From: a virus
Reading direction: 5' to 3' (one strand)
IMG/VR virus record: IMGVR_UViG_3300045996_001073
Coordinates: 1 to 22,069 of that record
DNA: 22,069 nt
The notes beneath the pieces were generated by a model. That model was not told the origin of the DNA. It did no database searches and saw only the letters and a program-made list of their open reading frames with translations. Both the position numbers and the translations under genes were made by a program. Below, piece after piece: positions 4,247 to 19,714 of the stretch. The stretch's first letter is position 1, and the number at the start of each line of letters is the position of its first letter.

Positions 4247-6664
4247 ATGACTGCCGGCTCCATCATCGTTGACCTGCTGATGCGCACCGCCTCTTTCGAG
4301 ACGGACACGAAGCGCGCGGAGAAGCGCCTCGCGGACATGCGCAAAGAGGCCGAGCGCATCGGAAAGGGCATCGGCGTCGCGATGGCGGCGGTCGGCGTGG
4401 CGGCCGTCGCGCTGGTGAAGAATTCGATCGACGCGGCCGACGCGACTGGAAAGCTCGCGCAGCAGACGGGCACCACCGTCGAGGAGCTCTCGGCGCTGAC
4501 CTATGCGGCGAGCCTTGCGGACGTCTCTCAGGAGGAGCTCGCCGCCGGGCTGGTGAAGCTGACGCGCACCATGAGCGAGGCAGAGGCCGGTAACAAGGAT
4601 GCGGCCGCCTCGTTCGATGCGCTCGGGATCAAGCTGCGCAACACGGACGGCAGCCTGAAGAGCTCGGATCAGGTGCTGCGCGAGATCGCCTCGCGCTTTG
4701 CGTCGATGCCCGATGGGATCGAGAAGACGAACGCGGCCGTCGAGCTCTTCGGCCGCTCCGGCGCGCAGCTGATCCCGCTGCTGAATGGCGGCGCGAGCGG
4801 CATGCAGGCGATGCGCGAGGAGGCCGAGCGGCTCGGCGTCGTGATCTCCACCGACACCGCGAAGGCCGCGGAGGAGTTCAACGACAACATCACGCGCGTG
4901 ACGGCCGCGATCACCGGGCTCGCGAACCGCGCGACGGCCGACCTGCTGCCGTCGCTGGGCGCCGTTTCCGAGGAGCTCGTCGCGCTCGCGAAGAGCGAGG
5001 AGACGGTCGCGGTCGCGACTGCGCTGATCCGCGGCGCGATCGACACGGCGATCGTGCTCTTTCAGACGCTGGCCGTGGTCGGCTCCGACGTCGGCTTCGT
5101 GTTCCTGGGCGTCGGGCGCGAGATCGGCGCTTGGATCGCTCAGATCGAGGCCGCGGCGCGCGGCGACTGGCAGGGCTTCAAGGCGATCAGCGAAGCGGTC
5201 AAGGCGGACGGCGAGCGCGCGCGCGAGGAGCTCGACAAGTTTCAGGCGCGCATCATGGCGATCGGGCGCACGCGCGTGCCAGAACGGCCCACGCTGGCCG
5301 ACAACCCGTTCCTGGCTGTCGATGCCTCGGGCGGGGGCTCCGCGCCTGCTGGCGGCCGTCCTGGCAAGCCCGCGAAGCAGTCCGAGGCAGAGCGCTACCT
5401 CGAGGGGCTGCAGAAGCAGTCCGAAAAGGTCCGCGAGCTCTCCGTCCTCGAGCAGGCGCTCGCGGACATCCAGGGGCGCCGGATCGAAGGCCTGACGCCG
5501 AAGCTGCGCGATCAGATCCTCGCGCAGGCCGCGCTCGTCGATCAGCAAAAGCGCGCCGCCGGCATGCTGGACGCGCAGAAAAAGCAGGAGGAGGAGCGGC
5601 TCGAGTTCATCCGCAAGGCGGCGGAGGAGGAGGCCGCGATCCGCCGCAGCGTCTCCGAATCCATGCGCGCCCAGGCGGAAGCCCGCATGGCGGAGATCGC
5701 CGGCCTGATCGAGGGCAACGAGTCGCTGCGCGACGAGATCGCGGTCCTGCAGGGCGGCGTCGAGGCGCGGCGCGCGATCGAGCGCGCGCGGATCTCGAGC
5801 ACGATCGCGCTGAAGGAAGAGACGCGCGCGATGCTGCAGAACGCGGGCGGCAGCGAGGCGCAGATCCAGGCGCTCGAGCAGGAGATCGCGCTGCTGCGCG
5901 AGCGCGCCGGGCTGCTCGACAAGCGCGTCCTGGCCGAGACGGACAAAGAGGTCCGCGACGCCGCGGCCGAGAGCCGCAAGACGCTCGCCGATCAGATCGA
6001 GCGCGGAATTCTCGAGGGCTCGCGCGAAGGGCTCGACCTCATGGAGATTTTCGAGGCCGAGCTCAAGGCGCATTTCGCGAAGACGGTGCTCCGGCCGGTG
6101 ATCGAGCCGGTCGCGGACGCGCTGACGAAGGTGATCGAGGAGTTCGTCAAGGCGATCGTGCTCGGGGGGCGCTCGAGCTCGAGCGGCGGCGGCGGGCTGG
6201 CCGGGCTCTTCGGCTCCCTATTCGGCAGCAGCGGCGGCGCTGGCGGGACGGTGGCCACGGACGACGCGCTCGCGCTGTTCTTCCATCGCGGCGGCATCGC
6301 GGGCTATGACGGCGATGTGCGGCGCTACCACTCGGGCGGGCTGGTGCACGGCGAGGTGCCGCTCATCGCCCAGGCCGGCGAGGAGATTCTCAGGCGCGAC
6401 GATCCGCGGCACCGCTGGAACATGACGGCGCGGCGCGACGGCCCGGCTCTCGTCGCTGCTGCGGCGCCCATCTTCAATTTCGAGATCGTGAACAACGCGC
6501 CCAACGTGCGGCCGCGCGTCGAGCGGCGCGAAGACGGCGGCGCGCGCGTCATCATCGACCAGATCAAAGGCGAGCTCGCGGAGGACATGCGCAACGGCGG
6601 CGAGTTCGCCTCCGCGATGGAATCGAACATGGGCGCGCGGCGGGCGCCTTCGCTGATGCGCTGA
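4247..6664 (+). CDS. Tail tape measure protein
   Basis: The 805-residue product is the longest early tail gene and directly follows G-T, as a tape measure should. The start region (FETDTKRAEKRLADMRKE at 17-34, then a hydrophobic GIGVAMAAVGVAAVALV at 41-57) and ADATGKLAQQTGTTVEELSA at 64-83 are typical of this family. A second hydrophobic stretch lies at about 265-300. Long charged helices at about 375-480 and 530-590 suit an extended coiled rod. The end has LMEIFEAELKAHFAKTVLRP near residue 600, a recurring lambda H-like feature, then a Gly/Ser linker. It sets tail length (about 120 nm predicted) and is probably ejected before DNA. No peptidase or transglycosylase domain is evident. Confidence 0.9.
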   Translation: MTAGSIIVDLLMRTASFETDTKRAEKRLADMRKEAERIGKGIGVAMAAVGVAAVALVKNSIDAADATGKLAQQTGTTVEELSALTYAASLADVSQEELAAGLVKLTRTMSEAEAGNKDAAASFDALGIKLRNTDGSLKSSDQVLREIASRFASMPDGIEKTNAAVELFGRSGAQLIPLLNGGASGMQAMREEAERLGVVISTDTAKAAEEFNDNITRVTAAITGLANRATADLLPSLGAVSEELVALAKSEETVAVATALIRGAIDTAIVLFQTLAVVGSDVGFVFLGVGREIGAWIAQIEAAARGDWQGFKAISEAVKADGERAREELDKFQARIMAIGRTRVPERPTLADNPFLAVDASGGGSAPAGGRPGKPAKQSEAERYLEGLQKQSEKVRELSVLEQALADIQGRRIEGLTPKLRDQILAQAALVDQQKRAAGMLDAQKKQEEERLEFIRKAAEEEAAIRRSVSESMRAQAEARMAEIAGLIEGNESLRDEIAVLQGGVEARRAIERARISSTIALKEETRAMLQNAGGSEAQIQALEQEIALLRERAGLLDKRVLAETDKEVRDAAAESRKTLADQIERGILEGSREGLDLMEIFEAELKAHFAKTVLRPVIEPVADALTKVIEEFVKAIVLGGRSSSSGGGGLAGLFGSLFGSSGGAGGTVATDDALALFFHRGGIAGYDGDVRRYHSGGLVHGEVPLIAQAGEEILRRDDPRHRWNMTARRDGPALVAAAAPIFNFEIVNNAPNVRPRVERREDGGARVIIDQIKGELAEDMRNGGEFASAMESNMGARRAPSLMR

Positions 6665-10379: not shown

Positions 10380-10811
10380 ATGACGATCTACTACCGACTC
10401 CCGACGCCGACGCAGGCCGGCGAAACCTTCGACATTCCGCCGGAGCAGTTCGCCGTGATGCAGGCCAACGGCAAGGCGGCCGATCTGCGGCTGTGGCTCG
10501 TCGATCCGATGCCGCCATTCGATCCGGCCTCGCAGGTGGTCGAGAGCTCGATCGTCGTCGGGCCGGCGGAGGCGCGGCGCACATGGGCCGTCCGCGCCAA
10601 GACGGAAGAGGAATTGCAAGCGGACGCGGCGATCGCTGCGCGCGCGGCCATCACCGGCCGGATCACCGACATAGCAGCGCAGCGCGCCGTCACCCGGGCG
10701 ACCTGGGATGGCTACTCGGCGGCGCAGCTGCGCGCCGAGCAGTGGCGCGACCGTCAGGCGCTGCTGCAGGCGATGGACGATGTTCTGAAGATGCTGCGGC
10801 GCGGGCTATGA
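10380..10811 (+). CDS. Small tail accessory protein, unknown function
   Basis: The 143-residue product opens TIYYRLPTPTQAGETFDIPP and has a short beta-rich first half with LRLWLVDPMPPFDPASQVVE near 40-60. A helical second half follows (EEELQADAAIAARAAITGRI near 77-96, then RAEQWRDRQALLQAMDDVLK). That two-part plan resembles small fibre-accessory or fibre-chaperone proteins, but I do not recognise a named family with confidence. It sits between the lectin and the hydrolase-like gene and overlaps the latter by four bases, so it probably serves one of them. Confidence 0.6.
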   Translation: MTIYYRLPTPTQAGETFDIPPEQFAVMQANGKAADLRLWLVDPMPPFDPASQVVESSIVVGPAEARRTWAVRAKTEEELQADAAIAARAAITGRITDIAAQRAVTRATWDGYSAAQLRAEQWRDRQALLQAMDDVLKMLRRGL

Positions 10812-12592
10812 GCGAAGAGATCGTCAGCACCACGCGCAAGGGCTACGTGCTCGTGCAGGAGCTCGACGGGACGATCGTCAGCCAGCACGCCGACCGCGAG
10901 AAAGCGATCAGCGCGGCGACGAACCTGGTGCTCGCGCGGCCGGTCGGCGCCGAGCTCGAGATCCACCACACCAGCCGCGTGCGGAAGGAAAAGGACATGT
11001 TCACCCCCCCGCTGCCGCCGGCGCCGCCGCCGCCGACCGAGCCGCCGTCGCCTCCTCCTCCCCCTCCTGCGCCGCCGCCTGCGCCTGCCAGCGCGCAGCC
11101 GCTGACGGCCTCGCTTCAGCATGGCGCGGACGATCGCGGCGCGGGATCCGCCAGCCGGCGCGAGGCGCTCGCGCGCTTCGATTGGGTGCTGTGGGGCATC
11201 TATCGGAAATCGCCGACGCTGAATGCGCGCGCGGAAGCCGCGATCGCCTACTGCAGGACGGTCAAGCCGGCCGGCATCCATTCGAACTACTCGATCGCCT
11301 ACGAGCTCTCGTCGCAGACGGCGCGGATTCTGCGCATCACGCGCGTCGGCACCACCGTCACCGTGACCACGCCAGCCATCGCGCCGAACATGCAGGTCGG
11401 GCGGCAGGCCTACATCGCGGCCGCCGGCGTCGCGGCCTACGTGGGACTCTGGACGATCACCGCGATCAGCACGGCGGTCGCGGGCGCGCACACATGGCAG
11501 TTCACCGCGACCGGGGGCGCAGCGACGGCGGCCGATGACAACCCCTGCGCCGGCGGGCGCTACGTCTGCTCGATCTCCACGGGCTACGACGCGCTGGTCA
11601 AGCTGCAGGAGGAGAACTGGTTTCTGCGCAAGCTGGGCACCGCAGGCGCGCAGACGGCGTGGACGAACGCCTACAGCGCCGTGGACATGAACTGCACCGA
11701 TTGGCTGCCGGTGGATTCGAACGGCGATCGCTGGGTCGATTGGAAGGCGAAGGACGACGACGCGGAAATCTTCGGGCAGATCGCAGGGCTCGATTACGTC
11801 TTCAGCGACAACCACATGGATCCGCGCGACGACATCATCAACGACAGCGCGTATCCGGCGCAGCGCGCAAAGCGCGATTGGAAGCGCACCGGCGCGCTGC
11901 AGGCGCGCACCGATGCCGACATCCTGGCCGCGCACCGCGCCGGGCTCGCGCGCTTCGCGCAGAAGCACCGCGATCTGTCCGTCGCCCGCCCGAAGAGCCC
12001 GGACGTCAAGATCATCGGAAATACGGACGGCTCTTTCGCGAATGGCGCCGGCTGGGACGATCAGATCGAGGCCGGATTCATTGAGGGCGCGACAGGCGCC
12101 TCCTACTCGCTTGCGACGCTGGCGCTCCTCGTCGCGCGGCACGATGCGATCAAGGCGCGGCTCCTGGCGCCGGCGCTGATGGTCTGGCACAGCCATGGGC
12201 CTTCGATCACCGACTACGCGGCGATGCGCTTCGGCTTGTGCTGCGCGCTGATGCGGCCGGGAACCTACTACTCGTTCGGCGCCAGCAAGCACGACAACAT
12301 CACCTTTTACAACGAGTACGAGCTCCAGATCGGCGCAGAGGTCGGCGGCGTCGATCCCTCCGCGCCGTGGAGCAACGGCGTCTGGCGCCGCGAGTTCGCG
12401 AACGCCTGGGCCTTCGTCAATGACACGGACACCGCGCGCACCGTGACGATCCTGGCCGGCCTGCGCCGCCCTGGCGCGGCGGACCTCCCGGCGGGCGCCG
12501 CGATCCACGATCCCGCGGTCTGGACAGGCGCGGCGCTGGGGACTTCGCTGACGCTAGGGCCGCGGCAGGGCCTCATTGCAATGAAGGTCTGA
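10808..12592 (+). CDS. Glycoside-hydrolase-like tail protein with Pro-rich neck and inserted beta domain
   Basis: The 594-residue product has four parts. Residues 1-60 are a small domain (GYVLVQELDGTIVSQHADRE...AISAA) also present in the 17919 gene. Residues 66-98 are almost all Pro and Ala. Residues 120-470 look like a TIM-barrel glycoside hydrolase of the 'hypothetical glycosyl hydrolase' kind (FDWVLWGIY at 124-132, GLDYVFSDNHMD at 327-338, KIIGNTDGSF at 401-410, PALMVWHSHG at 455-464). Residues 470-594 are the C-terminal beta domain ending LTLGPRQGLIAMKV. A beta module at about 172-236 (LRITRVGTTVTVTT...HTWQFTATGG) interrupts the barrel. A depolymerase or glycan-binding role is inferred. 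Catalytic residues cannot be named. A second in-frame ATG at 10997 with AAGGAA upstream could give a form lacking the first domain. Confidence 0.68.
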   Translation: MSEEIVSTTRKGYVLVQELDGTIVSQHADREKAISAATNLVLARPVGAELEIHHTSRVRKEKDMFTPPLPPAPPPPTEPPSPPPPPPAPPPAPASAQPLTASLQHGADDRGAGSASRREALARFDWVLWGIYRKSPTLNARAEAAIAYCRTVKPAGIHSNYSIAYELSSQTARILRITRVGTTVTVTTPAIAPNMQVGRQAYIAAAGVAAYVGLWTITAISTAVAGAHTWQFTATGGAATAADDNPCAGGRYVCSISTGYDALVKLQEENWFLRKLGTAGAQTAWTNAYSAVDMNCTDWLPVDSNGDRWVDWKAKDDDAEIFGQIAGLDYVFSDNHMDPRDDIINDSAYPAQRAKRDWKRTGALQARTDADILAAHRAGLARFAQKHRDLSVARPKSPDVKIIGNTDGSFANGAGWDDQIEAGFIEGATGASYSLATLALLVARHDAIKARLLAPALMVWHSHGPSITDYAAMRFGLCCALMRPGTYYSFGASKHDNITFYNEYELQIGAEVGGVDPSAPWSNGVWRREFANAWAFVNDTDTARTVTILAGLRRPGAADLPAGAAIHDPAVWTGAALGTSLTLGPRQGLIAMKV

Positions 12593-12596
12593 GGCC

Positions 12597-13559
12597 GTGG
12601 CGCTGCCCATCGTCTACCCCGCCTCGCTGCCGGCGCCGCAGCGCTGGATCGGCGTGCCGCGCGAGCGCCGCGCGCTTTCGGCGCAGCCCGGCAACACGCA
12701 GCTGCGAGGGCGCTCGCGCGACCTGCTGCAGGACATCGACGCGCAATGGATCTATGAGCCTGAGCAGATGGAGGTCTGGCGCGCGTGGTTCGATGACACG
12801 CTCATCAAAGGGCAGCGCTGGTTCGCGCTGACGATTCTCGGCGCCGGCGGCTGGATCTCGCGGACGGTGCGCTTCCGCACCGGCAGCGTGCGCCGGGAGC
12901 ATGTCTCGCACGGCGTCTTCCGCGTCTCGGCGCGGCTCGAGCAGCGCGGCCGCAGCGCGCCGCCTGCCGTCTGCGATGTCTGGCGCGAATCCTTCGCGAG
13001 CCTGGACCCTTACGCGGTCACGAACGGCAACGGGGCTCTCTTCGCGGTCGCCGGCGGAGTGCTCTCGATCGCGCCGCAAAACACCGGCGCCGGCAACATC
13101 GCGCGGATCCTGCGCGACATCGCTCCTGAGCTGCTGACCGCGCGGCGCTTCGCGTTCAACTTCCGGCTCACGACGGCGGCCGCGAACGACTCCGGCATCC
13201 TCGACGTGCTCGACAACGCCGGCGTCGAAAGCATCCTGCAGTTCCACGCGCGGCGCGATGCCGCGTTCGACGAGCAGCAGCGGGCCCGGCTGGTGCACGA
13301 TGACGAGGCGCTGCCGGTCAGCGACGAGGCGCTCGCCATCGGCACGTGGTATCGGATCGTGTTCCGCGTGCGCTCGGGCGTCGGCCAGTCCTCGTGCGTG
13401 CTGTCCGAGCTGGCGACGGGCGCCGTGCTGAAAACCACCGTCTACGCGAACGCGCACCCGGCGCTGACAGTCGATTCGCTTGCGTTCATTGCCGATAGCG
13501 GAGGGCTGACTTCCGGGGTGCAATACGCGGCCATTGAAATCGACAACTGCGAGGAGTGA
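12597..13559 (+). CDS. Distal tail protein fused to a lectin-like domain
   Basis: The 320-residue product starts GTG and has two parts. Residues 1-118 match the pattern of the gene at 6669 (YPASLPAP, then EQMEVWRAWFDDTLIKGQRW at 56-75, then HGVFRVSARLEQR). Residues 128-319 form a beta sandwich that looks like a concanavalin or LamG-like fold (WRESFASLDPYAV, GGVLSIAPQNTGAG, RFAFNFRLTTAAANDSGI, TWYRIVFRVRSG, VQYAAIEIDNCEE). The 6669 protein instead has a shorter, different C-terminal region. I infer a structural ring protein carrying a glycan-binding arm. It closes the adhesion block and is followed after six bases by the tail-tip genes. Confidence 0.7.
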   Translation: MALPIVYPASLPAPQRWIGVPRERRALSAQPGNTQLRGRSRDLLQDIDAQWIYEPEQMEVWRAWFDDTLIKGQRWFALTILGAGGWISRTVRFRTGSVRREHVSHGVFRVSARLEQRGRSAPPAVCDVWRESFASLDPYAVTNGNGALFAVAGGVLSIAPQNTGAGNIARILRDIAPELLTARRFAFNFRLTTAAANDSGILDVLDNAGVESILQFHARRDAAFDEQQRARLVHDDEALPVSDEALAIGTWYRIVFRVRSGVGQSSCVLSELATGAVLKTTVYANAHPALTVDSLAFIADSGGLTSGVQYAAIEIDNCEE

Positions 13560-14129: not shown

Positions 14130-14581
14130 ACCTGACGCCGCATGCCTCCGCGACGCATTGGAGCGCGCGCTACGTGGGGCTGCCCTGGGCGCCCGGCGCC
14201 GATGGGCCTGACGCCTACGACTGCTGGGGCCTCGTGCGCGCCGTGCAGCGCGAGCGCTATGGGCGCGACCTGCCGCGGCTGGCGGTGCGCGCCGACGCGC
14301 CGCCGGGCCAATGGGGCGAGCTCCGGCAGCTGGTCAAGCGCTCCTCCTCCTGGCGGCAGATCGACGGCGCCTGGGCAGACGGGGACATCCTCGTCATGCT
14401 GAATGCGAAGGGGCTGCCGCATGTCGGCACGGTCGTCGCGCGCGAGCGGCTCTTCGTGCTGCACTCCTGCGGCGAGCTCGACGAGCAGCAGCGCCCGCGC
14501 GGCGAGTCTGCGCTCGATCCTGTCGCCGAGCTCGGCGCGAGCGGGTTCGGCCACATCGACGCATGGCGGTGGCTGCCATGA
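14126..14581 (+). CDS. NlpC/P60-family tail-tip peptidase
   Basis: The 151-residue product has YDCWGLVRAVQRERYG at 31-46, with Cys33 as the expected nucleophile, and GLPHVGTVV at 96-104, with His99 as the expected partner. A later His113 or Asp is the possible third residue. This is the small peptidoglycan-peptide cleaving domain found alone or as half of lambda K. It would act in the periplasm at the tail tip during DNA entry, not in lysis. No MPN/JAB domain is attached or nearby, unlike lambda K. Four-base overlaps on both sides tie it to the DUF1833 and J-like genes. Confidence 0.86.
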   Translation: MNLTPHASATHWSARYVGLPWAPGADGPDAYDCWGLVRAVQRERYGRDLPRLAVRADAPPGQWGELRQLVKRSSSWRQIDGAWADGDILVMLNAKGLPHVGTVVARERLFVLHSCGELDEQQRPRGESALDPVAELGASGFGHIDAWRWLP

Positions 14582-17412
14582 GCGCGCGCGAGCTCTTTGC
14601 GCTCGGCCGGCCGGCGGCTTATGCCGTGGTCGAGGATCCGATGCAGTTCGACGTCGCGCCGCGCGACCTGCGGCCGGTGCCCGATGGCGCCGCGCTGGGC
14701 GACCTCGCGCCGGGGCAGGACTTCGTGTGCGCGATCATCGGGCCCGACTATCCCGATGGCGGCTACGTGCCGCGGGCGCTCTGGCACCACGCGCCGGCGC
14801 CGGGGCATGTCGTGCTCTTCCATCGGCCGGTGCTTGGCGGCGGCGGCAAAGGCGGCTCCGCCCGGCTCGTGCTGCAGATCGCGCTGATGGTGATGCTGCC
14901 GCAGCTGGCGCCGGCGCTGAAGCTGGCGGGCATCCTGACCGGCGTGCCCTCCGCGCTCATCACCGCGGCGGGCGCGATCGCCGGAAATGCGCTCATCAAC
15001 ACGCTTGTGCCGCTCGACAACAGCAACGCGGCCGGCAGCGCCGGCGGCTCGCCGACCTATTCCGTCAACGCGCAGGGCAATCAGCCGCGCATAGATCAGG
15101 TGATCCCGGAGCTCTTCGGGCGATCGAACACCTACGCGGACTTTGCGGCGCCGCCCTACAGCCTGTTCGTCGATCAGGACCAATTCCTGCACCTTGTGCT
15201 GATCGTCGGCACCGGGCAATACCGGATCTGGAAAGTCGCGAACGAATCGACGCCGCTCGAGGCCTATCAGGATGTGCAGATCATCCGCGCGGGCCCAGGG
15301 CAAAGCACGCAGGCCGGGCCCGGCACGGGCGTCGAGACGCTCGCGGAGCAGACGCTCGTCGCGCTGAACATCTGGACATCGCCGGTCGTGACCGGGCAGG
15401 AGCTCGAGTTCGGGCGCTTCTCCGGGCCCTACGCCGCAAGCCCGCCTGAGCGCGAGGTGACGTCGATCGGTGTCGACGTTTTGCTGCCGCGCGGGCTGGA
15501 CGATGGCCGATCGGTGCAGTGGGTCGTTCAGGCGCAGCTGATCGACGACTTCGACCAGCCGCTCGGCGCCTGGACGACGATCGGCTCGCACACCTACAGC
15601 ACGAGCTCTCCGATCCCGATTCGGCTCTCCTACGACTACGCGGTCGCGGCCGGCCGCTACAACGTCGGATTCCGCCGCATGGATGCGCGCTCCGCGGATT
15701 CCGGCTCGGCGCACGACATCACGATCGCCGGCCTGCGCGGGACGCTGAATGAGGCGGGCGTGGACTATCCGGCGGGAACCTACGTCTGCATCAAAGCGCG
15801 GGCGACGGGCCAGCTGAATGGAGCGCTGCGCGTCCGCGTGATGACGGATCGCATGCTGCCGGTGTGGGATGGTTCCACGTGGAGCGCGCCGCAGATCACG
15901 CGCAGCCCGGCGTGGGCGCTGGCGCGCGTGCTGAAGGCGCGCGGGCTCGAGGACGAGCAGATCGACCTCGAGCAGCTGCTCGCGCTGGATGCGGCCTGGG
16001 CCGCGCGCTTCGATCGCTTCGACTTCGCCTTCGATACCGTGTCGACGATGTGGGACGCGCTTGCGCTGATCGCGCGCGTCGGCCGCGCGGTGCCGCTGAT
16101 CCGCGGCTCGCGCTACACGTTCTGGCGCGATCAGCAGGAGAGCGTCGTCGTCGGCTCGTTTTCGATGCGCTCCATCCGGCGCGATTCCTTCCGGCTCGTC
16201 TTCGCCTTTCCGGAAGACGACCCGATCGAGGCGATCGCCTGCGAGTATTTCGACGGCCGGCGCGGCGATTGGGTGACGGTGACCGCGCAATGGGACGCGG
16301 CTGCGCAGGCCGTGCAGACATGGCGCTCGCAAGCGCAGCGGATCGCGCTGGGCCTTGCGGCGCCGGAGACGCCGGCGCGGATCAAGGTGCCCGGCATCAT
16401 CGGAGAGAACCACGCGCGGCGCTGGGCCGCGTTCCATCTCGCCGACCTGATCTTCCGGCCGCATCGGGCGCGCTTCAACACGGAGCTTTCCGGCCTGCTG
16501 CCGGCTTATGGCTCGCTCTGCAGCCTGCAGCACGACGTCGGCAACTTCGGGCAGGGCGGCGACTGCGTGGATTGGGACGAGGGCACGCTGACGATCGAGA
16601 CGAGCGAGCCGCTGCAATGGACGAGCGGCGCGGCGCACTACATCCGGCTCACGCGGCCGACCGGCGTCGCGACCGGCGCGATCCTCGCGACGCCTGGGGC
16701 TGACGTCAACCATGTGACGCTCGCGACTGCGCCGGGCTTCACGCCGCTCACGAGCGATCCAGACCGCGCGCGAACGACCTACGTCTTCGGGCCGGCGACG
16801 AACCTCGAGGCGCTCGTCAAGCCGCGCGTGATCAAGCCGCGCACGGAGCTCGACATCGAAATCGAGGCCGTGCTCGAGGACGATCGCGTGCACAGCGCCG
16901 ACTTGCCCTGGGCGATCGCGGATGTGCTGCCGGATCCGAACGCGCTTCCGGACCTGAGCGGCGGCCATGTGCTGAACCTGAGCTCGCGGGCGGTGGGCGA
17001 GGAAGTGCACGAATTCGAGGGCCTCATCCCGGCGGCGGCGATCGAGCTCCGCAATGACGGCGTGCTGCGCACCTATGCGCGGACCTACTCGGGCATCGGG
17101 ACGCTTGCATCCGAGACGGTCGCGGACATTGCCACCGAATGGGTGCAGCCGCAGCCGCTGACCACGGCGATCACCGGGCTCTATGCGGTTCGCTTCACGG
17201 CGCTCGGCACCGTGCCGCCCGGCCTGAGCGGCACCTTCGATGCATGGCTCGCGCTCGATACGAGCCGCAGCGTCGAATTCCGCAACGGCGACAACCCGTC
17301 CCAGGCCGCGGCGATCCGCGTCGAGATCCGCGACATCGCAACCGAGACAATCCAGGTCACGCGCACGATCACCCTGGCCACAACCGTCATTCCTGGCGGC
17401 GGCGGCGAATAG
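14578..17412 (+). CDS. Central tail-tip protein, gpJ-like
   Basis: The 944-residue product is the largest protein here and closes the tail-tip set. Residues 1-85 form a small domain (CAIIGPDYPDGGYVPRALW). Residues 97-146 are hydrophobic and Ala/Gly-rich, recalling lambda I. Residues 159-215 (TYSVNAQGNQPRIDQVIPEL, GRSNTYADFAAPPYSLFVD) are the usual entry to J-type hub domains. A middle beta region and helices follow, then the YFDGRRGDWVTVT region at about 559-571 typical of Phage-tail_3. The C-terminal half has fibronectin-like or tip domains. J proteins form the trimeric hub below the tube and bind the receptor. The possible I-J fusion is an inference. The protein stops at a Gly-rich GGGGE end. 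Confidence 0.85.
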   Translation: MSARELFALGRPAAYAVVEDPMQFDVAPRDLRPVPDGAALGDLAPGQDFVCAIIGPDYPDGGYVPRALWHHAPAPGHVVLFHRPVLGGGGKGGSARLVLQIALMVMLPQLAPALKLAGILTGVPSALITAAGAIAGNALINTLVPLDNSNAAGSAGGSPTYSVNAQGNQPRIDQVIPELFGRSNTYADFAAPPYSLFVDQDQFLHLVLIVGTGQYRIWKVANESTPLEAYQDVQIIRAGPGQSTQAGPGTGVETLAEQTLVALNIWTSPVVTGQELEFGRFSGPYAASPPEREVTSIGVDVLLPRGLDDGRSVQWVVQAQLIDDFDQPLGAWTTIGSHTYSTSSPIPIRLSYDYAVAAGRYNVGFRRMDARSADSGSAHDITIAGLRGTLNEAGVDYPAGTYVCIKARATGQLNGALRVRVMTDRMLPVWDGSTWSAPQITRSPAWALARVLKARGLEDEQIDLEQLLALDAAWAARFDRFDFAFDTVSTMWDALALIARVGRAVPLIRGSRYTFWRDQQESVVVGSFSMRSIRRDSFRLVFAFPEDDPIEAIACEYFDGRRGDWVTVTAQWDAAAQAVQTWRSQAQRIALGLAAPETPARIKVPGIIGENHARRWAAFHLADLIFRPHRARFNTELSGLLPAYGSLCSLQHDVGNFGQGGDCVDWDEGTLTIETSEPLQWTSGAAHYIRLTRPTGVATGAILATPGADVNHVTLATAPGFTPLTSDPDRARTTYVFGPATNLEALVKPRVIKPRTELDIEIEAVLEDDRVHSADLPWAIADVLPDPNALPDLSGGHVLNLSSRAVGEEVHEFEGLIPAAAIELRNDGVLRTYARTYSGIGTLASETVADIATEWVQPQPLTTAITGLYAVRFTALGTVPPGLSGTFDAWLALDTSRSVEFRNGDNPSQAAAIRVEIRDIATETIQVTRTITLATTVIPGGGGE

Positions 17413-17436
17413 GGCCCTCATCAGGAGAGAGAAGCG

Positions 17437-17886
17437 ATGCTCACCGACTACGCACTCAACCGCATCATGGACGCGGCTTATCGCGGGCAGGCGATCGCAT
17501 GGCCGGCGACGCGCTGGGCGGCGCTCTTCACGACGATGCCGACCGCGGCCGGCGGCGGCGTCGAGCTCGCGACCGTCGATGTCGGCCGCGTCGCGATCGC
17601 CTCGAGCTTGGCGAATTGGAGCGGGACGCAGGGCGCGGGAACCACCGTCGCGAGCAGCGGCTCTACGGGGCTGATCTCGAACAACATCGACGTCGAGTTC
17701 GCCGCCGAGCTGACCGTCGCCGTTGCGGGCGTGGTGGGCTGGGGCCTTTTCGATGCAGCGGCCGCGGGCAACCTGTGGGACTTCGGCTACATCATCGACG
17801 CGGACGGCAACCCGATCAGCCGCTCATGGTCGATCGGCGACGAGCTCCTGTTCGGCCCGGGGACCATGATGGTCGAGGGCGTCTAG
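17437..17886 (+). CDS. Small fibre-tip-like protein
   Basis: The 149-residue product starts LTDYALNRIMDAAYRG and contains RWAALFTTMPTAAGGGVELA near 26-45, SLANWSGTQGAGTTVASSGS near 56-75 and VVGWGLFDAAAAGNLWDFGY near 98-117, then an ISRSW...GDELLFGPGTMMVEG end. This combination is a recurring family of small phage tail-fibre proteins with a beta-rich adhesin-like fold. ATG 17437 has AGGAGAGA about six bases before it. It is the first gene after the J-like protein, where side fibres and tip proteins are often found. Ligand and exact location are unknown. Confidence 0.72.
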   Translation: MLTDYALNRIMDAAYRGQAIAWPATRWAALFTTMPTAAGGGVELATVDVGRVAIASSLANWSGTQGAGTTVASSGSTGLISNNIDVEFAAELTVAVAGVVGWGLFDAAAAGNLWDFGYIIDADGNPISRSWSIGDELLFGPGTMMVEGV

Positions 17887-17918
17887 GCGGGCGGCCAAGG
17901 AAAGGGGAGGCGCAAAAG

Positions 17919-18719
17919 GTGGACGAGGATCAGCGAAGCGATGCCAGCGCGCCCCTTCCGGGCGAGGGCCGGTTCTTCGTGCGCCCGAACGGAGGCGCTG
18001 CGCTGCAGCAGGCGCACCCGGATCTGAGGCAAGCGATCAGCGCGGCCGGAAAGCTGGGGCCTGGGCGCCACCTGATCGAGCACCCTGCGCTCGAGGTCAT
18101 CGTGACCGTCCAGGCCGCGCGCCTCGCGGCGCCGCCGGCTCCTGCTGCGCGGGCCGCTGCGCCGGCTGCAGCTGCCGCGCCGCCTGCGCCGCCTCGCGAG
18201 CGCGCGCTCGTCGGGGCGCGGATCTTCGGGCTGTGCCGCAACCGCGGCGGCGAGTCGCCGATCTTCCGCACCTGGGCAGACATGTGGCGGCGCTACTGCA
18301 GCATGCAGGAGGCGGCTCGATTTCCGCAAAACGTCATCCTGAAAATCGTCGCAGCCGCGGGCGATTACCAGCGCATGCGCTGGGGCCTCGCGACCGCGCT
18401 GCTCGGGGAGGGCGGCTACACGGTGATCGATCCGATGGGGCAGGCGATGCCGTGGTATGACGAATACGACGCCGCCTTCGGCCTGCCGATAGACCCGGTG
18501 CCCGACCATTCCGTCACGCTGACGGGCACAACGTGGATGCGGCGCTACGAGGGCGGGCTCGCGCTGGTGAATACTTCGGCCGAAGCTCCGGACACGATCG
18601 CGGTCCCCTCGGGCTATCGGCGCATCAATGGCCGGCAGGATCCCGAGGTCAACAGCGGCGCGACCGTGAGCGATCTCCGCCTGCCGCCGCAGTCCGGAAT
18701 CCTGCTCGTGAAGGCCTGA
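17919..18719 (+). CDS. Shortened relative of the hydrolase-like tail protein
   Basis: The 266-residue product begins at GTG with GGGGAGG upstream. Residues 17-63 resemble the first domain of the 10808 protein (both contain AISAA after a short beta part). Residues 68-95 are an Ala/Pro neck. Residues 98-148 keep only what looks like the end of a hydrolase barrel. Residues 149-266 match the C-terminal domain of the 10808 protein: DYQRMRWGLATAL against DYAAMRFGLCCAL, then DEYDAAFG, W..R.EGGLALVN, then DPEVNSG and a final LPPQSGILLVKA. Most of the barrel, and with it any active site, seems absent, so this may be a glycan-binding or structural remnant. It is intact as a reading frame. Confidence 0.65.
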   Translation: MDEDQRSDASAPLPGEGRFFVRPNGGAALQQAHPDLRQAISAAGKLGPGRHLIEHPALEVIVTVQAARLAAPPAPAARAAAPAAAAAPPAPPRERALVGARIFGLCRNRGGESPIFRTWADMWRRYCSMQEAARFPQNVILKIVAAAGDYQRMRWGLATALLGEGGYTVIDPMGQAMPWYDEYDAAFGLPIDPVPDHSVTLTGTTWMRRYEGGLALVNTSAEAPDTIAVPSGYRRINGRQDPEVNSGATVSDLRLPPQSGILLVKA

Positions 18720-18725
18720 CACCCC

Positions 18726-19097
18726 GTGGATTGGAAAGAGGTCGGAACCGCGCTCGCCGCGGTGCTCGTCGGCGCCGGTGCGCTCGCTCACAGAGCGCGG
18801 CGCGCGAATTCGCGCGAGCGCGTCGAGAGCGCGAAGGACGAAGCGGAGACGCGCCTGATCTCCCGGCTCGAGGAGGAGCGCGACGAGGCGCGCGAGGAGG
18901 CCGCCCGCGAGCGATCGCAGCGCGTCGCCGAGACGCGGCGGCTCGCGAAGCTGGAAGCGGAAAACGCCTACCTGAAGAGCTACGCGCGGCGCCTGATCCG
19001 CGCGCTGCCGCCGGCCGATCGTGCGGTGCATGAGACGGACTTCGCGCCGTTCGACGAGGCGGCGCACACGAAGCCGGGCGGCGAGGTCCAGCGGTGA
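18726..19097 (+). CDS. Single-TM coiled-coil protein, holin candidate
   Basis: The 123-residue product has one hydrophobic segment near the N-terminus (VGTALAAVLVGAGALAH, about 6-22), a basic stretch HRARRANSRER just after it, and a long charged coiled coil at about 30-92. By the positive-inside rule the N-terminus would be outside and the coiled coil in the cytoplasm. It is the gene directly before the endolysin and overlaps it by four bases, the usual holin place. No sequence family is recognised. A DUF2730-like or other lysis-associated membrane protein is an equal possibility. Start is GTG six bases after the preceding stop. Confidence 0.6.
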   Translation: MDWKEVGTALAAVLVGAGALAHRARRANSRERVESAKDEAETRLISRLEEERDEAREEAARERSQRVAETRRLAKLEAENAYLKSYARRLIRALPPADRAVHETDFAPFDEAAHTKPGGEVQR

Positions 19098-19714
19098 AGA
19101 TCACGCTCGCCGGGCTGATTGCCGCCGGCCTGCAGCCGACGCAGGCGCGGATTTTCGAGGCGCCGCTGCAGCTGGCGTGCGAGCGCTTCGCGATCGACGC
19201 CTCCGCGGGCCGGCTGGCGGCGTTCCTGGCGAACGCGGGCCACGAGAGCCGCAATTTCACGCGCCTCGAGGAGGATCTCTTTTATCGCTCCGCCGAGCGG
19301 ATCCGCGCCGTCTTTCCTTCGCGTGTTCGCGACCTAGCGGAGGCCGCGGCGCTCGTCGGCCGGCCGCAGGCGCTGGCGAACCGCGTCTATGCGGGCAAGC
19401 TTGGCAACGGCCCGGAGGACAGCGGCGATGGCTGGCGCTTCCGCGGCCGCGGGCTCTTCCAGCTGACCGGGCGCGGGAACTACCGCTCGGCCGCCGTGGC
19501 GCTGAAGTTCGACTACGAGCTCTCGCCTGACCTCGTGGCCATGCCGCACCATGCAGCGCTGACCGCGGCCTGGTTCTGGCAGTCGATCGGCGGCAACGTG
19601 CTCGCGGACGCGCGGCAGATCGATGCGATCACGCGCCGGATCAACGGGCCGGCGATGCTGGCGGCGGAAGAGCGGCGCGAGCGCTACGAGCAGGGCCTAC
19701 AGGCCTTCGCGTGA
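19094..19714 (+). CDS. GH19-family endolysin
   Basis: The 206-residue product is a lone glycoside hydrolase 19 (chitinase/lysozyme-like) domain. FLANAGHESRNFTRLEEDLF at 44-63 contains the likely acid Glu51 and a second acid at Glu59 or Glu60. NRVYAGKLGNG at 96-106 and WRFRGRGLFQLTGRGNY at 114-130 are the conserved substrate-cleft region. WFWQSIGGNVLAD at 160-172 and the ITRRINGP helix follow. It should cut the glycan strands of host peptidoglycan late in infection. There is no signal peptide or cell-wall-binding domain, so release needs a holin. It is bounded by short overlaps with the holin candidate and Rz. Confidence 0.87.
   Translation: MKITLAGLIAAGLQPTQARIFEAPLQLACERFAIDASAGRLAAFLANAGHESRNFTRLEEDLFYRSAERIRAVFPSRVRDLAEAAALVGRPQALANRVYAGKLGNGPEDSGDGWRFRGRGLFQLTGRGNYRSAAVALKFDYELSPDLVAMPHHAALTAAWFWQSIGGNVLADARQIDAITRRINGPAMLAAEERRERYEQGLQAFA

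Follow-up and report, generated by a model that had tools for sequence, protein, structure and literature searches.

Gene content of the locus

The window, by which we mean the whole 22,069-base virus record that was analysed, carries a siphophage-like tail region and a lysis module. The tail region includes a tape-measure-like protein (4247-6664, recognised by reading of the sequence) and also holds fibre genes. Two proteins are considered here, protein A (10808-12592, + strand, 594 aa) and protein B (17919-18719, + strand, 266 aa), whose genes are 5.3 kb apart and adjoin different fibre genes. The gene of protein A is adjoined by that of a phrog_384-type structural protein (12597-13559). Protein B is encoded after a J-like tail tip protein (14578-17412, + strand; phrog_469 4e-97, phrog_31 8e-45) and, directly upstream, a Gp80-like small fibre protein (17437-17886, + strand; PF23140 1.6e-19). 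It is directly succeeded by the lysis genes (18726-19714, + strand), which are spanin/holin-like (18726-19097) and an endolysin (19094-19714). The slot between J and the lysis genes is filled in phages BcepGomr, JWT and ART, which are related through J, by other small proteins of ~220 aa, and no homology to B was found among these neighbours. Among the head-tail genes of the window, the C-terminal part of frame 161-1336 (~680-1336, + strand) is glycosyltransferase-like (LLTPTGDRPQAWALCERWMLAQDY...) and, judged on its sequence, could possibly be a host-glycan-modifying gene.

Protein A is made up of an N-domain, a Pro-rich neck, a GHL15-type barrel and a C domain. The N-domain (residues ~12-63, 10841-10996, + strand) has a sub-threshold resemblance to DUF2188 and is succeeded by the neck (11000-11098, + strand), which was delimited from the sequence. 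An insertion of ~75 aa lies inside the barrel (residues ~172-250, 11321-11557, + strand). This insertion is beta-rich, follows the second barrel strand and is absent from the bacterial relatives examined; no match to it was found in Pfam, PHROGs or the phage collection.

The open reading frame of protein B is real, having a GTG start, a Shine-Dalgarno-like site upstream (GGAAAGGGGAGG) and a length of 266 aa. All of its parts lie on the + strand. An N-domain (residues ~17-67, 17967-18119), marginally similar to that of A and modelled at low confidence, leads into a Pro/Ala-rich neck (residues ~68-95, 18120-18203) that is evident from the sequence and has low pLDDT. A neck of this kind, noted for both proteins in the preliminary description, is indeed seen in both. 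There follow a barrel remnant (residues ~96-187, 18204-18479), delimited by the GHL15 profile and the model, and a C-terminal beta domain (residues ~203-266, 18525-18716), in which the conserved core is kept and pLDDT is 89-96. The remnant runs in the order possible beta6, then alpha6, beta7, alpha7, beta8 and a WYDEY segment. The remnant and the beta domain together make up a non-catalytic C-terminal third of a GHL15 protein.

Homology to GHL15 and the loss of the catalytic pair

The C-terminal similarity of the two proteins, previously proposed from the sequence alone, is real and far exceeds chance. BLASTP aligned A469-593 with B149-265 at 29% identity (E = 3e-9), and in a shuffle test of the C-terminal parts none of 5000 shuffles was as good (z = 15.8). 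Both proteins exceed the Pfam cut-off of 27 bits for GHL15 (hypothetical glycosyl hydrolase family 15, PF14885), A with 32.5 bits over model positions 90-271 and B with 29.4 bits over positions 209-270 of 271. The C-terminal motif given earlier as 'LP..G.L...K' is common to both, and is better written L.L.P..G[LI]...K (LTLGPRQGLIAMKV / LRLPPQSGILLVKA). Relative to the Pfam family, A differs by its insertion and by the added N-domain and neck, whereas B retains only the last 62 of the 271 model positions and is without the catalytic pair.

A second GHL15 profile of 420 positions was built from ~65 bacterial GHL15 proteins. It matched A over positions 116-382 and B over 261-417, so that B, far from having a complete barrel, corresponds to no more than the final ~37% of profile positions. 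Within the stop-to-stop frame 17058-18716 the match begins only at residue ~117 of B. Since profile coverage is confined to the C-terminal part, the preliminary description was right that nothing but the end of the barrel is left in B. The missing portion is not hidden in another frame or gene, as no frame of the window gave a further profile match.

The barrel of A is of the (beta/alpha)8 type, its N-terminal half being modelled at low confidence, and contains an Asp and a Glu (Asp334, 11807-11809; Glu426, 12083-12085; + strand) that are invariant in 65/65 homologues. The best fold matches of the A model were GH168 fucanase-type barrels (Foldseek 6.2e-9 and 1.9e-9), namely the GH168 endo-1,3-fucanases (Fun168A, PDB 8ya6/8ya7) and PbFucA (8rg5). 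The catalytic residues of the GH168 fucanase FunA are D206 and E264 (Table 3, PMC11943901). A profile of the A family aligns D334 and E426 with this pair, which has an equal spacing of 58 residues in the aligned chain; how far the published numbering is shifted from the chain index was inferred from that equality. Sequence identity to these enzymes is low (12-18%), and the likeness is one of fold and catalytic pair. The GH191 and GH114 alpha-galactosaminidases are more distant fold matches (9ep5, 9euz, 2aam). They use an Asp nucleophile and a Glu acid/base, the same plan as the pair in A (PMC12054363), and profile comparison of A with the GH191 structures gave no sequence-level match. Given the invariant Asp and Glu, the GH168-type fold and the alignment with the GH168 catalytic pair, A is plausibly an active glycosidase.

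B has neither acid, the corresponding part being absent or replaced, and its alignment starts (residue 117) downstream of both. Within the barrel remnant the active face has been altered at four positions (N142K, D170I, H174G, W178P). With both acids gone and these four residues changed, B is almost certainly not a glycosidase. The losses in the later part are restricted to L187F, E234R and D259S, and most of the C-domain core is kept. Altogether, B retains 20 of the 28 near-invariant positions (columns at least 90% conserved in the bacterial relatives) and 3 of 38 variable ones. Its codon use, read in frame, fits that of the other window genes (z = 7.4, or z = 5.5 for the C-terminal part alone), and no frameshift, internal stop or lost coding character was seen in the gene. 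Retention and codon use are as expected where catalysis was given up and the fold kept, and unlike drift. Moreover, the intact frame, the Shine-Dalgarno-like site and the coding-type codon use make B look constrained rather than dead.

The model of B (mean pLDDT 71.7, residues 140-266 mostly 76-96) comprises a helix (119-132), a strand (140-144), a helix (150-162) and a strand (166-170), with the beta domain after them; ~3 of the 8 strands of a barrel are thus present besides this domain. GH168 enzymes can be superposed through their last third on residues 99/100-265 of the model (Z ~10, rmsd 2.6), with 8ya6 giving Z 10.3 and rmsd 2.6 over 121 residues and 9jp3 giving Z 10.5. Foldseek searches with B in the PDB and BFVD returned no significant match. 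A beta6 strand kept in B with its Glu changed to Gly104 was suggested by the model superposition and was set aside, as the sequence gives it no support; when compared with the expected beta6 segment, residues 91-118 did not outscore shuffled sequences. In the alignment used for structural comparison (A1), residues 15-35 of B were paired by MAFFT with the bacterial beta6 segment, and for this reason the model of B is not to be read over its N-domain. One third of a barrel may, alone, fold poorly.

N-domains, relatives and origin

The N-domains of A and B had also been described as shared, and here the similarity is suggestive at best. A local alignment of 31 residues (KGYVLV..DREKAISAATNL / EGRFFV..DLRQAISAAGKL) was reached by 7 of 2000 shuffles and the global alignment by 29 of 5000 (p ~0.004-0.006), the similarity being centred on AISAA. 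A comparison of the two single sequences by hhalign gave a probability of 19%, and model confidence is low for either N-domain. The 16-base identity cited in favour of a common domain is present (18031-18046, + strand, identical to 10902-10917) and consists of in-frame codons of K/Q-AISAA, QAISAA in B. An identity of at least 16 bases arose in 2 of 1000 codon shuffles of the pair. The stretch carries little weight as evidence: the 22 kb contain three more complex 16-mers that are repeated at unrelated positions, and AISAA is encoded by common codons in a GC-rich, codon-biased window. DUF2188 (PF09954) was rejected as the identity of the domain, A scoring 13.3 bits against 22 (E 0.095) and B not matching; by hhalign it is weak for A and gives nothing for B. 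A profile of the two N-domains finds, by construction, only A and B in the window, and a third member was not found.

A pattern search with the WYDEY segment recovered ~80 bacterial GHL15 proteins, mostly from Patescibacteria, and a class search added proteobacterial GHL15 proteins, which are nearest to A. The WYDEY-type segment and C-domain core are common to A, B and the ~80 bacterial members. Among the relatives recovered, those closest to A (up to 35% identity) are three apparently secreted GHL15 paralogues (L127, L132 and L135) of one proteobacterial genome, G032. Full-barrel GHL15 genes were also found in tail or fibre loci of two other viral contigs, whose genes were identified from their translations. 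In L004 the gene adjoins a tape-measure-like gene, and in L138 it lies between beta-helix-spike-like and endosialidase-chaperone-type fibre genes. Signal-peptide-like N-termini, odd for virion proteins, were seen in the GHL15 proteins of L004 (2263-5478) and L138 (1351-2892) and in a neighbouring fibre gene of L138. The literature searched contained no account of a GHL15 protein in a phage tail.

Searches of IMG/VR with B, its C-terminal part, A and the J protein returned no close relative, and neither did searches of the phage collection with B, its C-terminal part, A and the whole window; neither source yielded an orthologue of B. Two candidates were discarded. L003 matches at FRTWADMW by chance, in a protein without relation to B, and AP013541 is likewise a chance hit, to a generic fibre protein that the C-domain profile misses. 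C-terminal GHL15 fragments do occur in bacteria and are broken copies, one with a frame change (L107, 4837-5265) and one split between frames (L136). The former lies a few kb from a GHL15 gene (2-817) in a betaproteobacterial exopolysaccharide-type locus, and this pair is a natural example of how truncated GHL15 copies arise. As the bacterial fragments are broken and the same-slot phage proteins non-homologous, B is the only intact gene of its shape in the material examined.

A and B are 28% identical in their common part and each is closer to some bacterial protein (34% and 39%). Their branches lie near the proteobacterial group and are longer than 2 changes per site (column) each. Both the identity and the branch lengths rule against a recent duplication of A to give B; if B derives from a copy of A, the event took place long ago. 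The AU test gave p = 0.485 for an A+B clade and p = 0.392 for B with the proteobacterial group, and a single shared origin of A and B is neither shown nor excluded.

Possible roles of protein B

The reading we prefer, which we hold to have about an even chance of being right, is that B is an accessory tail protein, derived from GHL15 and non-catalytic, that contacts sugars or fibres. In its favour are the truncated GHL15 homology without the catalytic pair, the intact and coding-like frame, the place of the gene between tail-tip and lysis genes, and the full-barrel GHL15 genes in the tail or fibre loci of L004 and L138. We infer a location in the virion, docking through the N-domain and binding of glycans. 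B would be anchored by its N-domain to the tail tip or close to it, with the Pro/Ala neck serving as a flexible tether that gives reach to the C-terminal module. This module would bind a host-surface polysaccharide or stabilise neighbouring fibres without cutting, and hydrolysis would be done by protein A. The C-terminal domain of GH168 and GHL15 proteins may, though, be purely structural.

The same gene could be a remnant, whether copied from A or acquired separately, which has lost its barrel and is decaying or functionless. The broken second copies in L107 and L136 show bacterial C-terminal fragments of just this sort, and no intact architecture like that of B was found elsewhere. However, an intact frame of 266 codons with a Shine-Dalgarno-like site and coding-type codon use is not what a remnant should display, nor is selective conservation of the core along branches of more than 2 changes per site. 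We consider this explanation unlikely, and the 'decaying duplicate' of the preliminary description is in the same way disfavoured by the deep divergence of A and B, the open frame, the codon use and the retention of near-invariant positions. A role away from the virion, in which B is a soluble or assembly factor, such as a chaperone or a competitor that binds A, or GHL15 enzymes of the host, at the C-domain interface, would account for the GHL15 part being its only recognisable domain and for the lack of any known virion domain. It is the least probable of the readings, with the gene placed among those for tail tip, fibre and lysis proteins and a free interface partner having to be supposed ad hoc.

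It was also proposed that A and B share a docking N-domain for the same tail site, so that one arm would carry the enzyme and the other would not. As regards enzyme content the proposal stands, A having the barrel with its Asp/Glu pair and B neither acid. The common plan of N-domain, neck and GHL15 C-terminal part, and the shuffle statistics of the N-domains, agree with shared docking. Against this, the similarity spans ~31 residues around AISAA, no third member was found, and the genes are separated and adjoin different fibre genes; we regard shared docking as decidedly improbable. A fuller version, in which A and B occupy equivalent tail sites via a common N-domain, A cutting and B gripping, and the ratio of arms sets the speed of the virion through the layer, requires both N-domains to be the same module and seems to us very doubtful. 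A comparison may be made with the branched tailspikes TSP1-4 of phage CBA120, which, according to PMC8825819, place several receptor or enzyme proteins on each virion, joined via N-terminal domains. This is an analogy only; in the present phage the partner that lacks the enzyme is a glycosidase in truncated form.

GHL15/GH168-type enzymes, which are mostly bacterial in the material considered, are now placed in phage tail loci by the window, L004 and L138. Should the preferred reading hold and B work in the virion, this phage would have retained, for accessory use in its tail and beside a full-length relative, that third of a glycosidase which takes no part in catalysis, and the separation of gripping from cutting would become directly testable.
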